A stretch of DNA of 64,000 nucleotides from Leptolyngbya iicbica LK (GTDB lineage: Bacteria > Cyanobacteriota > Cyanobacteriia > Phormidesmidales > Phormidesmidaceae), in contig NZ_QVFV01000001.1 of NCBI RefSeq assembly GCF_004212215.1, positions 1,448,155 to 1,512,154 of the forward strand, read 5' to 3'. Position 1 is the stretch's first letter. The number at the start of each line of letters is the position of its first letter. Position numbers and translations under genes: made by a program. This document shows, one piece after another, positions 41,047-46,405 of this stretch. A model generated the notes under the pieces. It saw nothing but the letters and a program-made list of their open reading frames with translations. It was not told the DNA's origin and made no database searches.

Positions 41047-43422
41047 TTACAACGGGGCGGGATTGCCCACCAGAACAAAAGCAGCCCAATTGATGGGATC
41101 AGGATATTGGGCGCGGGTTTGGAGCATGGCTTGGCGAAGAGCCTGGGCTTTGTCGGCACCCTGTGACAGCTCGGTATAAAAGGCTTGCATTAAAGTAGCG
41201 GTGGGCTCATCGGGCACCGCCCAAAGCGAGACGACAGTACTTTGGGCTCCTGCTGATAGCAGCGATCGCGATAAGCCCACCACCCCATCGCCTGTCACTT
41301 CGCCCAGGCCGGTATCACAAGCGCTCAACACCACTAGTTGGGCGGACAAAGACAGATTGGCAATTTCTCGCGCGGTCAATAAACCATCATCATCGTCGTC
41401 GGGGGCGAGGGCGATCGCACCAGGAATGGGAATGCGATCGGTGGTATCGACATAGTCCAGCAGGCCATGGGTCGCGAGATGCACCACATTGGCCGTGGAC
41501 ATGGCCGTTGCGACCTGCGATTCGGTAGCGTCGCTGCCCAGTATCGCCTGCGTTTGCAAGAGGTCGGCAATGGCGATCGCTTCCGCTTCCGCCCCCGGTA
41601 AGGGCTGCAACTCGCCTTCTAAGCTGGGGACAGCAGGCATGGTGGGATTGCCCACGACTAGGGGGGCAGCACCAACCATCGTCGCCTCAGCCAGCGTCAG
41701 GTCGAGCAGTTGAATTGCAGGCGTAGTGAGCAAGGTGTGCTTATCAACCAGCGCCTGCCCGGCGGCATCCGTAAGCGCAGCAAAGGGCAGATAAAACAGC
41801 GATTCGTGGGGCACCAGCACCACCAGCGCGTCGGGATCATCGGGGAGTGCGGCCTCGATCGGTGCAATCAAACGGGTGTAGAGATCATTGAGATCAGACG
41901 AAGATTGGGCGCGATCGGTCTGCACCACGCCAATGCCACGGGTGCGGCCCAAGGCCCCAATGGCCGAACGACTTTGCTGCACCTGCTCATTCAAGCTGAG
42001 GGTGATGCCCGCCAGGGAAATTTCTTCAAAGGTTACGGTGCCGTCCGGCGCGACCACCCACACAAATACCCGCCCCGCTTCACCCCGCTGCCGACCCTGC
42101 ACGGTGAAGTCGTCTTCTGGGACGATCGCATATTCCACCAAGGTGGCGTCTAAGCGCTGGGCGACCTGACGCAATTCATCAATGGTCGGCGCGGTGATGG
42201 GCGTGTCATCCGTGGCAAAGGATTCCACAAAGGCGCGAGCCCGCCCCGCTTCCGAGGTTTCCAGCGCAGCGATGTAATCGCCTTGGGCCACCTGCACCTG
42301 CATCAGCAGGTTGTAGGTATAGATTTGGGTATCAAAGACGTTGACTTTATCGGCATCGGCTAGCCCCCGACGGAGGGCAGATAGGAGCTGTACTGATTCT
42401 TGCAGGGCGATTTCAGCTGGGTCAAAATCGCCCGTGACGAGTTGGGTATGGGCCAAATTGTTCAAAGCATCGGCCAGCAGCCGGGGCGTTTCGAGGTCGC
42501 GGGCGATCGCCACGCTGGCTTGATGACTCCGCAGCGCCTGCTCAAAGTCATTCGCATCTTCAAAGGCGACGCCCAGGTTGGTCAGCACGGTGGCTTGTAG
42601 CTGGCGATTGCCCGTTTCTACCGACAGGGCCAGACTGCGCTGAAACTGAGCGATCGCGGCGGCTTGATCGCCCAACTTTTGGTAAGTGCCACCCAGGTTA
42701 TTCAAACCATACGCCGCAGACCCGAGGAAGCCCGCGTCCGTAGCCAGGGCAATGCCCCGCTCATACCAGGCGATCGCCCTGTCGAAGTCCCCCTCTAGGC
42801 TGTAAAGACCGCCCAAGTTCATTTGGGCGGTCGCTTCAAGAGACGGGGCGTTGACGTTAGCCGCCAGAGTCATGCTCGTTGATTGGGCGGCGATCGCCGA
42901 ATCATAATCCCCTAGCGCTTCGTAGGCATTGCCCAAAAGACCATAGAGCTGGGCGATCGCGGCCGATTCGGGCTGATCTTGTAATTGCGTCAGCGCCTGT
43001 TCATAGGTCTCTACCGCTTGGGCAAATTGCCCCGACGCTTGATAGGCAATGCCCAAATTGCCCAAAGCTTGGGCGACGAGATCGGGCCGCTCCAGCATTT
43101 CGGCAATCGCGGCACTCTCACTGGCATAGGCAATCGCGTCACCATGACGACTGAGGGACAGGGTGGCGGCGGCCAACGCATTCAGCGTCAGGGCCGTTTG
43201 AGTGGAATTTTCTGCGGCTCGAAACCCGCTCAAAGCCGACTCCCAGGCAGCGATCGCCGCCTCGTAATCGTTAGCCTGAAATGCCGTCAACCCGGTTTGA
43301 AAAGCCGTGGCAGGGTCGGGCTCTCGGACGCTTTGACTAATGGTGACAGCTGCCGACGGCAGCCATCCTCGCGGCTGGACGTCAGCACTCAGCAACGCCG
43401 CCGCCCACAGGGTCGATAACAT
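41047..43422 (-). CDS. TPR-CHAT caspase-like protein, probably exported
   Basis: 791 aa. Hydrophobic start MLSTLWAAALLSADVQ looks like a signal peptide. About 8-9 TPR motifs occupy residues 40-360 (for example AIAQLYGLLGNAYEALGDYD). The CHAT domain (about 480-785) has the catalytic pair His652 in HLATHGLLDY and Cys702 in VVLSACDTGLGEV, and ends WAAFVLVGNPAPL. CHAT proteins are clan CD cysteine proteases related to caspases and separase. The start ATG at 43422 has GGGGAG 6 nt upstream. It is the second gene of an operon with the hemagglutinin-type gene, 36 bp away. Proteolytic activity and any substrate are inferred. Confidence 0.9.
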   Translation of the reverse strand: MLSTLWAAALLSADVQPRGWLPSAAVTISQSVREPDPATAFQTGLTAFQANDYEAAIAAWESALSGFRAAENSTQTALTLNALAAATLSLSRHGDAIAYASESAAIAEMLERPDLVAQALGNLGIAYQASGQFAQAVETYEQALTQLQDQPESAAIAQLYGLLGNAYEALGDYDSAIAAQSTSMTLAANVNAPSLEATAQMNLGGLYSLEGDFDRAIAWYERGIALATDAGFLGSAAYGLNNLGGTYQKLGDQAAAIAQFQRSLALSVETGNRQLQATVLTNLGVAFEDANDFEQALRSHQASVAIARDLETPRLLADALNNLAHTQLVTGDFDPAEIALQESVQLLSALRRGLADADKVNVFDTQIYTYNLLMQVQVAQGDYIAALETSEAGRARAFVESFATDDTPITAPTIDELRQVAQRLDATLVEYAIVPEDDFTVQGRQRGEAGRVFVWVVAPDGTVTFEEISLAGITLSLNEQVQQSRSAIGALGRTRGIGVVQTDRAQSSSDLNDLYTRLIAPIEAALPDDPDALVVLVPHESLFYLPFAALTDAAGQALVDKHTLLTTPAIQLLDLTLAEATMVGAAPLVVGNPTMPAVPSLEGELQPLPGAEAEAIAIADLLQTQAILGSDATESQVATAMSTANVVHLATHGLLDYVDTTDRIPIPGAIALAPDDDDDGLLTAREIANLSLSAQLVVLSACDTGLGEVTGDGVVGLSRSLLSAGAQSTVVSLWAVPDEPTATLMQAFYTELSQGADKAQALRQAMLQTRAQYPDPINWAAFVLVGNPAPL

Positions 43423-43458
43423 GAGATTCTCCCCACTTAGCGCTCAATACGCTGTGCT

Positions 43459-45969
43459 TTACTCTTCACACTCAGCGTCAGGGTCTTCCTCATTGTCGTC
43501 ACAAATTTCTAAGATTGACTCTTCTGCTTCGGTCTCAATGCCGCGCAGGGTTTCTGCATCGTCGTCGTCGGAGAGGTCATCCAATCCGGTGGTGTCGGCG
43601 ATTTCGTTAGTGGGTTCAAACAGTTGGCTCTCTAAAAAGGTGACGATGGTGCGATCAGGCTCGGCGAACAGCAAGCCCGCCAAGGTGCCGTTTTCGCCAG
43701 GCGGGGGCGCGACGCCGCCGTCACCCACGATCGCCGGCCCGATGAAAAAGTCGCGTGCTTCAAATCGGCGAGTGTTGAGGGTGTCAAAGGCGATCGCAAT
43801 TTCGCCGCGAGTGTTGGGATCGATCTTCACCCCCCGGAAAAAATATTGCTGGTCGGCAGCGGGGGGAATGGGATTATCCGCCGCGTCACGGGGTAGAGGA
43901 ATCGCGACAAAAATACTCAGGTTGTAGGTGTCAGAAGCGATCGCGTTACCAGCGGCATCTCGCTGCGACACCGCTTCGACCCGAAAGAAATCTTCCACGC
44001 GGAAGGTGTCGGCGGCATTGACCACCAGTCCACCAGCCCCAGCCAAGATACCATCGACGATGATGTCGCCCTGCGTGGATTCCAAATAAACGCGACTGCC
44101 GTTGCCGCCGCCCAGCCCCACCGCTCCCGAAATCAGCGGTATCCCATCGGCATCAATAATCTGGCGCTGGAGCGCATTCAAATCGCCCGCTTGAATGGAG
44201 GAACCGATCACCGTCAAGTTACCGTCCGTTTCCACCGAGGGATCAATATTGGCGTTATCGTTGCCGTCGCGCCAGGTACGAATATCGCCCAGGGTCACCG
44301 CTCCCCCCGCCGTGATGAATACATCGCGTCCCGGGGCTGAAATCGTGTCGCTCGGATTCATGGCAAAAGTGCCGCCGGACTCAAAGCGAATCGGGGCGGG
44401 ATCGGGCGGCACCTCACTGGGCACGAGGGATTCGGTGATCTCCACGCCATTGATGAAAATGGGCGATCGCTCGGCAAAGGTAAGTTCGTTGTCGGCCAAA
44501 TCTTCGATGGTGATGCTGTTGCTGGCCCGTAAGGTAACAGCGGTATCACCACTCAGCCCTTCCAACTCCGATTCAAAAATGAGAGTGGGAATGGGATCGG
44601 TCAGGGCCAGGTTAGTCTCGCTCAGCAGCGTCGCCAGCGTATCTGTGTCATCACCGTCGGCAGTGCCATTGCGAATGATGATGTCGGTCGGGTCGAGCAA
44701 CAGTTCGCCGTCGGTGCCCAGCGGGGCGGTCGTATTCACCATGCCGTCAAAGAGCAGCGATCTCGCCCCCGACACTTCTACAAACCCGCCGTCGCCGCCC
44801 AGGCCCCCCCCTTGGGCCGAAATCTCCCCGGCAAACGCTGTCGTGTCATCTGACCAGAGAATCACCGTGCCGCCATCACCCTCCACGAGTGCATCCGCGG
44901 CGATCGCGCTCTCGGCATCCATCACCGTCAAGGTAGAACCTGGCAGCGTAAGTTGTCCCATCAGATCACCGCCCACGCGCACGGTGCCGCCCCCCTGGTC
45001 GCCTGAAGCATCCACCGTGGCGCTGAGCAAACTGACGCGATCGCCCACCACCGTCACATTGCCGCCCTTGGTGCCAGAGGTGTCGAGGGTGCCCGTGGCG
45101 ATCGCGGTCCCTGGCACATCGGCAACGGCGGTATTCACCAGGGCGATCGTGCCATCAGGATTTGTCGTGATGCCGGTGGCGGTGGCAATGTCGCTGCCCG
45201 TCAACAATTCCGGCAAAGCTAATGGTGAAAAGGGCAAGGATGTCGGAGCTTCAGCAGACAATGCTTCCAACTCTAGGCTCAGGGCCATGTCGGTTTGGCT
45301 AATGCGGACGAGGTTGCTGTCGGGGATGGCGGCGATCGTGATGTCGCCCCCCGGTGCAGTCAGCGTCCCAGTGGAAATCACCTGCCCCCCCACAAGGGTG
45401 ATGGACTCGCCTGGCATGACAGCCAAATTTGCGGCGTTGACGATCGCGCCTTCCTCGCCCGTAAACGCAAATCCGGTCGGCGTTCCCGCCAACTGGCTGT
45501 AATCGTTGGGGCCGAGGACATTAAACAACGCCTCATCAAACAGCACCCCGCTGGCGGTAGTCGCCGCAAACGATCCGGCCAAATCAAGCTGGGCATTGGG
45601 GCCAAACAAAATTCCGGCAGGATTGATGAGATACAGATTGGCCGCACTGCCCGCCACCTGCAAGCGCCCGTCAATATAGGAAGCCTGACCGCCCGTAATT
45701 GCACCCAGAATCGATTGCACGTTGGGCTGGGCCAAAAACGCCGCGGTCTGGTCTGCCGTCAACCCAAACTGAGTAAACGCATGGAACAAAGTCTGCTGGT
45801 CAGCCGACAGCTGCCCCCCCGTAATGTTGAAAGTTGGCCCAGCGGCCTCAACCTGGGTCGTTCCGCTCGGATCGGGAGTAATGGGGCTTGCCTGTCCGGA
45901 TAGCGCAAACCCCAACAGCGTACTACCCACCACCAAAGCAGAGACCGACGGATGCAGAACAATATTCAT
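43459..45969 (-). CDS. Filamentous-hemagglutinin-type (two-partner secretion) protein
   Basis: 836 aa from ATG at 45969 (the frame extends to 46056). A signal-peptide-like start (MNIVLHPSVSALVVGSTLLG) is followed by the TPS domain (about 25-260) with GPTFNITGGQ, LFHAFTQFGL, LYLINPAGILFGPNAQLDLA, and GFAFTGEEGAIVNAANLAVM. The remainder is beta-helix-like repeats rich in Gly/Asp/Val (to about 700), then a mixed region, and an acidic tail ending ICDDNEEDPDAECEE. The length is modest for this family. It would be exported across the outer membrane by a TpsB/FhaC-type pore; none is encoded in this window. It lies upstream of the CHAT gene in the same operon. Confidence 0.88.
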   Translation of the reverse strand: MNIVLHPSVSALVVGSTLLGFALSGQASPITPDPSGTTQVEAAGPTFNITGGQLSADQQTLFHAFTQFGLTADQTAAFLAQPNVQSILGAITGGQASYIDGRLQVAGSAANLYLINPAGILFGPNAQLDLAGSFAATTASGVLFDEALFNVLGPNDYSQLAGTPTGFAFTGEEGAIVNAANLAVMPGESITLVGGQVISTGTLTAPGGDITIAAIPDSNLVRISQTDMALSLELEALSAEAPTSLPFSPLALPELLTGSDIATATGITTNPDGTIALVNTAVADVPGTAIATGTLDTSGTKGGNVTVVGDRVSLLSATVDASGDQGGGTVRVGGDLMGQLTLPGSTLTVMDAESAIAADALVEGDGGTVILWSDDTTAFAGEISAQGGGLGGDGGFVEVSGARSLLFDGMVNTTAPLGTDGELLLDPTDIIIRNGTADGDDTDTLATLLSETNLALTDPIPTLIFESELEGLSGDTAVTLRASNSITIEDLADNELTFAERSPIFINGVEITESLVPSEVPPDPAPIRFESGGTFAMNPSDTISAPGRDVFITAGGAVTLGDIRTWRDGNDNANIDPSVETDGNLTVIGSSIQAGDLNALQRQIIDADGIPLISGAVGLGGGNGSRVYLESTQGDIIVDGILAGAGGLVVNAADTFRVEDFFRVEAVSQRDAAGNAIASDTYNLSIFVAIPLPRDAADNPIPPAADQQYFFRGVKIDPNTRGEIAIAFDTLNTRRFEARDFFIGPAIVGDGGVAPPPGENGTLAGLLFAEPDRTIVTFLESQLFEPTNEIADTTGLDDLSDDDDAETLRGIETEAEESILEICDDNEEDPDAECEE

Positions 45970-46405
45970 GGGGCAACGGGGGCAAGACGAAGGGTTAACA
46001 AGTCGCCACCGCCAGCGATGTGGGAGCGCGATCACCGCAGCGATCGCCGCATCCATCCCAGCACCAAATAGGCAGCATGAGCAAAGGACGTAAAAGAAAA
46101 ATCAGCGTTTTCCGTACATTTTCGGAGGCTGCGTCTAGCTTACTGGATGAAATCCGCCATTTCATCTGAGCGCGATCGCCGAAAAAGATTGATATATCAG
46201 GGTTATTGGCGATTTACCCCTGACTGCATCAATGACAAAAATTGATGTTTTTAATCCGCGTGGCCCAGTGCTGACGCCGCCGACTCGGCCTGGTCTGCGG
46301 AAGGCCCAACACCATTGCTGGCAGCATCGCCAACCACTCCTTATTCCGTCGCCACCCGCGATCGCCGAAAACGTTACAGTATGTAACGACGACTGAGGGT
46401 GCAGC
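45970..46405. other. Divergent promoter region between the hemagglutinin gene and nei
   Basis: 436 bases with no supported gene. It must hold the promoters of both divergent transcripts. No inverted repeat or riboswitch-like structure stood out. Confidence 0.5.

Follow-up and report, generated by a model that had tools for sequence, protein, structure and literature searches.

Hemagglutinin-like secretion stalks and caspase-like CHAT domains recur together in cyanobacterial genomes, as neighbouring genes or as a single chain

Why should the gene of a secreted, hemagglutinin-like protein be followed directly by the gene of a caspase-like protease? The best-known CHAT proteases, namely Csx29, separase-like enzymes and HetF, act inside cells or at the inner membrane. 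In the window, by which we mean the whole 64-kb stretch of DNA analysed here, an FHA/TpsA gene of 836 aa (43459..45969, minus strand), encoding a signal peptide, a TPS domain, a beta-helix stalk and an acidic tail, lies upstream of a TPR-CHAT protease gene of 791 aa (41047..43422, minus strand). The 36-bp gap between them (43423..43458, minus strand) contains no terminator-like match. An earlier, sequence-only reading had proposed this order of a TPS gene and, 36 bp on, a TPR-CHAT gene, and it is confirmed by the ORF coordinates and by Pfam. There is an open alternative start for the FHA/TpsA gene at 46056; the start at 45969 agrees with that of the orthologue L070. Both genes are under purifying selection, with dN/dS values for FHA and CHAT of 0.084 and 0.069, respectively, against locus L148, and of 0.105 and 0.082 against L149. 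The four neighbouring window genes that were scanned encode DUF192, metallophosphatase, Fpg-type glycosylase and MscS proteins, with no Cas protein among them, and PADLOC returned only a generic TPR match.

The upstream protein has the features of a two-partner secretion stalk. Its signal peptide is normal-looking. Its TPS secretion domain (residues 30-228, with an NPAGILFG motif; 45286..45882, minus strand) is matched by PF05860 (E 2.7e-37) and TIGR01901 (E 1.2e-21), and this region of the FHA model folds like EtpA and the secretion domain of HMW1. In the same model, which is of moderate quality (pLDDT 68.2), the strands of the predicted beta-helical stalk continue to about residue 658, and the nearest solved structures are EtpA, HMW1 and HxuA. 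The C-terminal region that follows (residues 660-836; 43462..43992, minus strand) is predicted to be disordered (AlphaFold pLDDT < 50) and has an acidic end. The acidic, Cys-containing tail noticed earlier is borne out by the composition of the last 60 residues, which include 25 Asp/Glu and a single Lys/Arg, together with Cys823 and Cys834 (43468..43503, minus strand). These are the sole Cys residues of FHA and constitute a candidate disulfide anchor of the type found in HMW1 and HxuA.

In the downstream protein, the CHAT domain comprises residues 511-787 (41062..41892, minus strand; PF12770, E 6.8e-70). Both putative catalytic residues that had been described as intact, His652 within an LATHG motif (41467-41469, minus strand) and Cys702, the sole Cys of the protein (41317-41319, minus strand), are present and aligned with those of relatives, and the His and Cys are retained in 67/67 aligned CHATs. 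A TPR superhelix (residues ~37-402; 42217..43314, minus strand) is assigned from Pfam TPR families and from helices in the model, and at E <= 0.001 Pfam identifies only CHAT, TPR and TPR-like families in this protein. The AlphaFold model (pLDDT 82.5) resembles Csx29, separase and DdvA; the loop after Cys702 (residues 703-713) is poorly predicted. Beyond residue 90, the hydrophobicity of every 19-mer stays at or below 1.61.

Signal-like starts had been claimed for both proteins, and this held well for FHA but poorly for the window copy of CHAT. Its weak signal-like N terminus (residues 1-31; 43330..43422, minus strand) has no basic residue ahead of the hydrophobic core, and its hydrophobic peak is the lowest among 32 aligned CHATs. 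The open frame ahead of the ATG extends for 7 codons only, leaving no room for an earlier start. The stretch aligns with clearer signal peptides in several relatives, for example, L152, L155 and L086, and by a crude measure a basic residue precedes the hydrophobic peak in 24 of the 32 aligned CHATs. Signal peptides were judged here by hydrophobic peaks and basic residues, with no trained predictor. Poverty in Cys was considered as a further sign of export and dropped, given that 17/32 relatives hold 2-4 Cys after residue 60.

The sequence-only reading had called for a survey of FHA-CHAT adjacency across cyanobacteria. The adjacency proved to be conserved from both sides and was accompanied by natural fusions. 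For the stalk-side sample, which was chosen by FHA alone, we searched 39 genomes, the window's own among them, for FHA homologues (E <= 1e-60), and 30 had one. Regions fetched from the 29 other genomes, leaving out ten of the eleven weakest matches, yielded 88 TPS ORFs, of which 51 were fused to CHAT, 10 were followed by a separate CHAT, 16 had neither and 11 were cut by contig ends. A CHAT domain is thus located in the same chain or just downstream for 61/77 assessable TPS ORFs, and a TPS-CHAT fusion or pair is present in 23/29 genomes. In L129, one of the ten adjacent pairs, CHAT is broken and spans two ORFs. Domains in the fetched loci were called with profiles built from own-genome proteins (for DUF928, partly from fetched loci) rather than with Pfam.

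The CHAT-side sample consisted of relatives of the paired CHATs in named genomes, and its 37 loci are all cyanobacterial by name. It describes one subfamily because the search patterns were built from TPS-linked CHATs. We considered the 28 loci with at least 3 kb upstream; the nine others (< 3 kb, or no CHAT ORF) were excluded, and three of these (L157, L181 and L184) also show FHA sequence upstream. In 22/28 assessable loci, an intact TPS gene on the same strand is located no more than 0.9 kb upstream of CHAT, and stalk sequence lies upstream on the same strand in 24/28, down to ~38% CHAT identity. At L160 the upstream stalk is frameshifted and the match ends ~1.8 kb before CHAT, and at L168 the upstream stalk sequence is cut by the contig end. 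FHA is absent upstream in 4/28 loci, namely L161, where another CHAT takes its place, L169, L171 and L173.

Plasmids gave a more varied picture. CHAT matched 29 plasmid records, and the five TPR-CHAT loci viewed among these show signal-like N termini and lack a TPS neighbour (for L189, only ~1.3 kb upstream is available). A correction to the sequence-only reading is thus that a secreted-looking TPR-CHAT is not peculiar to the pairing with a stalk; in addition, the solved structure nearest to the window CHAT by Foldseek is that of DdvA, a transmembrane anti-sigma factor. A Kovacikia plasmid record that was not among the five has a TPS match ~5 kb upstream, and the reversed order, CHAT before FHA, occurs on two annotated plasmids. 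When a fusion protein was compared with plasmids (128 records matched), its TPS and CHAT ends were found together only in cyanobacteria among the 25 matches listed.

In a tree, 72 CHAT domains fall into two groups; with its long branches, fragments and unsettled bootstraps, only this two-group split was used. Group 1 contains the split TPR-CHATs and four single-chain TPS-TPR-CHAT proteins (L088, L091, L094 and L143), and group 2 holds 50 fusions, in which no TPR was found with our own TPR profile. Both groups include TPS linkage, and the linkage is therefore not confined to one of them. By their predicted domains, the TPR-containing fusions are the window pair as one chain. Comparison across genomes indicates that the pairing of stalk and CHAT is not due to chance, and we read the window pair as the two-gene version of a cyanobacterial TPS-CHAT system, apparently undescribed, whose parts are more often joined in a single polypeptide. 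Because both partners form one protein in many relatives, they very likely cooperate, and we regard a functional coupling as highly probable. The single-chain fusions also would place CHAT on the export path.

Where the two proteins might meet is suggested by the tail of the stalk. In HMW1 and HxuA a C-terminal disulfide provides an anchor (excerpt of PMC5422565), and the disulfide loop remains periplasmic and locks the TpsA protein in the pore (excerpts of PMC5422565 and PMC8151025). The Cys-bearing acidic tail of the window FHA fits such an anchor in the periplasm; were its loop to act like that of HMW1 and HxuA, CHAT would meet the tail in this compartment. With loci present in both samples counted once, exactly two Cys are found within the last 130 aa of 24/27 CHAT-adjacent FHAs, and in 23/27 this pair is the only Cys beyond the signal region; tail Cys are absent in 2/27. 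Two tail Cys also occur in 16/21 solo TPS proteins, and the pair is therefore a trait of the stalk and not CHAT-specific. Among 54 fusions, including three from the window's own genome, 29 have one Cys pair in the segment between TPS and CHAT, 21 have no Cys there, and 4 differ; in the fusion at L100 the Cys pair is far from CHAT. The CHAT parts of all 54 have exactly one Cys each. As a separate observation, ILKIL-like C-terminal ends were noticed in the Calothrix type as a candidate motif. No shared cleavage motif was established.

The survey suggested by the sequence-only reading also covered a nearby TpsB transporter. No ShlB (TpsB) match is present in the 64-kb window, and ShlB matches are found only elsewhere in the genome, whereas TpsB does occur within 5 kb of 10/50 related TPS-CHAT units. 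The lack of an adjacent TpsB weakens the case for a complete system, but not the call of the TPS domain, since most related units are also without one. The own genome (5.7 Mb) contains 11 CHAT, 11 TPS and 4 ShlB matches, the last of which are located on contigs C5 and C6 and, weakly, on C1 at a distance of 1.4 Mb. Three of its TPS genes encode TPS-CHAT single chains, and a cluster at C5:251-270 kb comprises, in this order, a TpsA gene, a TPR/cyclase gene, two further TpsA genes, a TpsB gene and a CHAT gene.

The sequence-only interpretation, in which CHAT may process or release the adhesin, is partly supported. As the best explanation, to which we would give a little less than an even chance, we propose that a periplasmic CHAT protein processes the tail of an anchored stalk. 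The stalk would pass the outer membrane via a TpsB whose gene lies elsewhere in the genome, and its C-terminal disulfide loop would hold it in the manner of HMW1 and HxuA, with the acidic tail remaining in the periplasm. CHAT would reach the periplasm either with a signal peptide of its own or as the C-terminal end of a fusion, and would sit at the acidic tail, with the TPR superhelix as its docking arm. Its role would be that of a protease dedicated to trimming or releasing the anchored stalk, in the way that the FhaB prodomain is processed by DegP and CtpA. Among the parts of this proposal, an extracytoplasmic location of CHAT is probable; the stalk tail as its substrate is a tentative assignment, about which we have slightly more doubt than confidence. 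The fusions to an export domain, the signal-like CHAT starts in relatives, the tail Cys pair and the retention of His and Cys in 67/67 CHATs would favour the proposal. Against it we count the weak signal of the window CHAT, the missing TpsB in the window, the 16/77 TPS ORFs without CHAT, the 21/54 fusions without Cys between TPS and CHAT, the 2/27 paired FHAs without tail Cys, the 4/28 CHATs without FHA, the occurrence of the Cys pair in solo TPS proteins, the reversed order on two plasmids, and the plasmid TPR-CHATs without TPS.

The main rival to this proposal is that the stalk senses binding or damage as an outside-in alarm, and that periplasmic CHAT cuts or switches a CHASE2 receptor of the inner membrane with a variable cytoplasmic output. 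CHASE2 is encoded within 5 kb of 14/50 TPS-CHAT units, with DUF928 as well in 9/50, compared with 11 CHASE2 and 6 DUF928 in the whole 5.7 Mb of the own genome; from this density ~1.3 of 50 units would be expected to have CHASE2 (an estimate rather than a matched control). The 50 units are those flanked by at least 3.5 kb in both directions, duplicate loci being counted once, and 26/76 units were without such flanks. The order CHASE2, DUF928, FHA, CHAT recurs at L156, L158, L159, L167, L172 and L175, and at L170 with a further TPS gene. Outputs vary among the CHASE2 proteins scanned, with cyclase, GGDEF/EAL, TIR or CHAT domains and, in one protein, a sub-threshold histidine-kinase-like match. 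The presence of TpsB, DUF928 and CHASE2 at some loci suggests outside-in signalling. However, 36/50 units have no CHASE2 within 5 kb, the window pair is among those without it (the nearest on its contig is ~190 kb away), and an action of CHAT on CHASE2 is purely putative. We consider this alarm rather unlikely as an account of the pair. Still somewhat less likely is its fullest version, a modular trans-envelope receptor made up of an FHA stalk held by its disulfide loop in a TpsB pore, periplasmic CHAT, DUF928 and an inner-membrane CHASE2 receptor with interchangeable cytoplasmic outputs, of which the window pair would be a reduced two-gene copy. If it were true, surface contact or damage would be relayed inward by proteolysis, and the system would be a bacterial analogue of surface receptors linked to caspases.

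It is improbable, in our judgement, that CHAT is carried outside with the stalk and acts as an effector, either at the surface or after release, in the manner of the C-terminal domains of CdiA-like polymorphic toxins. The fusions do place CHAT C-terminally behind TPS and stalk, in the toxin position of such proteins, and some caspase-fold domains in polymorphic toxins are thought to be toxins (excerpt of PMC3482391). Yet the ends of polymorphic toxins are varied, whereas a single domain, CHAT, ends 51/77 assessable TPS ORFs, and the split CHATs themselves lack a TPS domain. Moreover, we clustered the downstream neighbours of 99 CHAT ORFs, repeat loci included, that lay within 400 bp and were at least 60 aa long; the 12 largest clusters of these 98 neighbours contain no common small immunity-like gene, and those that recur encode TpsB, additional TPS proteins, or proteins with TIR or CHASE2. 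Alternatively, CHAT might no longer cut and might support stalk export as a TPR scaffold or chaperone; peptide binding is common among TPR arrays, and the poorly predicted loop 703-713 would agree with this. The invariance of His and Cys in 67/67 CHATs, the purifying selection on the gene and the lack of TPR in most fusions make this quite improbable. Very improbable, finally, is a neighbourhood without joint function, in which CHAT is cytoplasmic or has other targets, the gene order being simply inherited. Secreted-looking TPR-CHATs without TPS do exist and the window CHAT signal is weak, but the stalk is upstream in 24/28 loci and single-chain fusions occur in two CHAT groups. Processing of the anchored stalk tail by a periplasmic CHAT is the reading that we prefer.

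If a large set of cyanobacterial CHAT proteins is fused to or paired with exported surface stalks, caspase-like proteolysis would operate at the cell envelope. Unassigned cyanobacterial CHAT and hemagglutinin-like genes would gain a concrete, testable partner, and filamentous bacteria may have a means of passing from contact at the surface to a programmed response.

The domain families of stalk and protease are already known, and our literature search found no paper that joins CHAT with hemagglutinin or two-partner secretion. EtpA, HMW1 and HxuA likewise combine a TPS domain with a beta-helix. The HMW and Etp systems come with TpsB and a glycosyltransferase (excerpt of PMC8151025), whereas the window FHA comes with a caspase-like protease and its TpsB is encoded elsewhere. 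Polymorphic toxins also include caspase-fold domains in secreted multidomain proteins; for type V secretion, the accessible part of their survey names HINT as protease, and no cyanobacteria (PMC3482391). HetF is a cyanobacterial protein with CHAT and TPR, like the window CHAT, but its CHAT is N-terminal (residues 1-555), it has one predicted transmembrane segment, and it is a divisome component; no link to TPS is mentioned in the available portion of that paper (PMC8406250).

Among solved structures, Csx29 of type III-E CRISPR (Craspase) shares the TPR and CHAT fold and is ranked first by VIA (Z 27.4, rmsd 7.2 over 462). It is bound to Cas7-11 according to the titles of structure entries, a partner class not seen among the four scanned neighbours of the window pair. 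The transmembrane anti-sigma factor DdvA (8rw5, 8rot) is ranked first by Foldseek for the CHAT model (E 7.4e-18, TM 0.52; VIA Z 25.5, rmsd 6.4 over 604). By sequence, too, no other PDB entry gives a significant match to the CHAT domain (E 4.6e-07 for DdvA), and the His and Cys align. We take its TPR-CHAT part to be extracytoplasmic, in which case a precedent for an extracytoplasmic CHAT may exist. DdvA differs from the window CHAT in having anti-sigma and membrane parts, and we know of no surface-stalk partner of DdvA. To our knowledge, DegP, CtpA and SphB1, the proteases associated with Bordetella FhaB, are not encoded in the fha operon. The C-terminal prodomain of that stalk is processed by periplasmic DegP and CtpA (excerpt of PMC8263021), which are not CHAT proteins, whereas the protease described here is coupled to its stalk by gene order or by fusion.

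The CHASE2 receptors of the cassette, the CHASE2, DUF928, FHA, CHAT gene order found at some TPS-CHAT loci, carry an additional CHAT domain of their own, which was detected by Pfam as a weak match N-terminal of CHASE2 in the two receptors scanned (locus L156, 1615-3972; locus L088, 3629-5959). Genes similar to these two are present at loci L091, L094, L111, L143, L159 and L172. The cysteine of an N(S/A)CDGLGL motif is conserved in all eight receptors examined, and a His motif is not obvious in these eight.

The FHA stalk proteins of L159, L162, L170, L175 and L182 have ILK(I/V)-like residues at or near the C terminus, preceded by an acidic or Asn-rich stretch. It is possible that these ends act as a docking or recognition motif.

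Genome G005 contains another FHA-CHAT pair (L129, 3332-5778) with TpsB upstream and with its CHAT broken across two ORFs. On cyanobacterial plasmids, TPR-CHAT proteins with signal-like N termini are encoded at L185 to L189, adjoining further CHAT genes at L185 to L187, and no TPS neighbor was seen at these five loci. CHAT and FHA genes are adjacent in reversed order, next to an outer-membrane transporter gene, on a Gloeothece (L190) and a Nostoc plasmid (L191); at L190, CHASE2 is present as well.

In the LK genome, contig C5 (~248-251 kb) encodes a TIR-CHASE2 protein of 1085 aa (L027, 3116-6373), adjoined by a DUF928 gene and divergent from the C5 TpsA/TpsB/CHAT cluster. A subtilase with a P-domain and RTX repeats (L030, 6298-8604, also on C5) is encoded between a TpsA and a CHAT gene. 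A TPS paralogue without a CHAT gene directly downstream recurs within the genus (LK contig C1, 1614917-1616800; L072, L076 and L077; L074, 7794-10490), and it has the same C-terminal Cys pair as the window FHA (Cys823/Cys834), a candidate HMW1/HxuA-like disulfide anchor.
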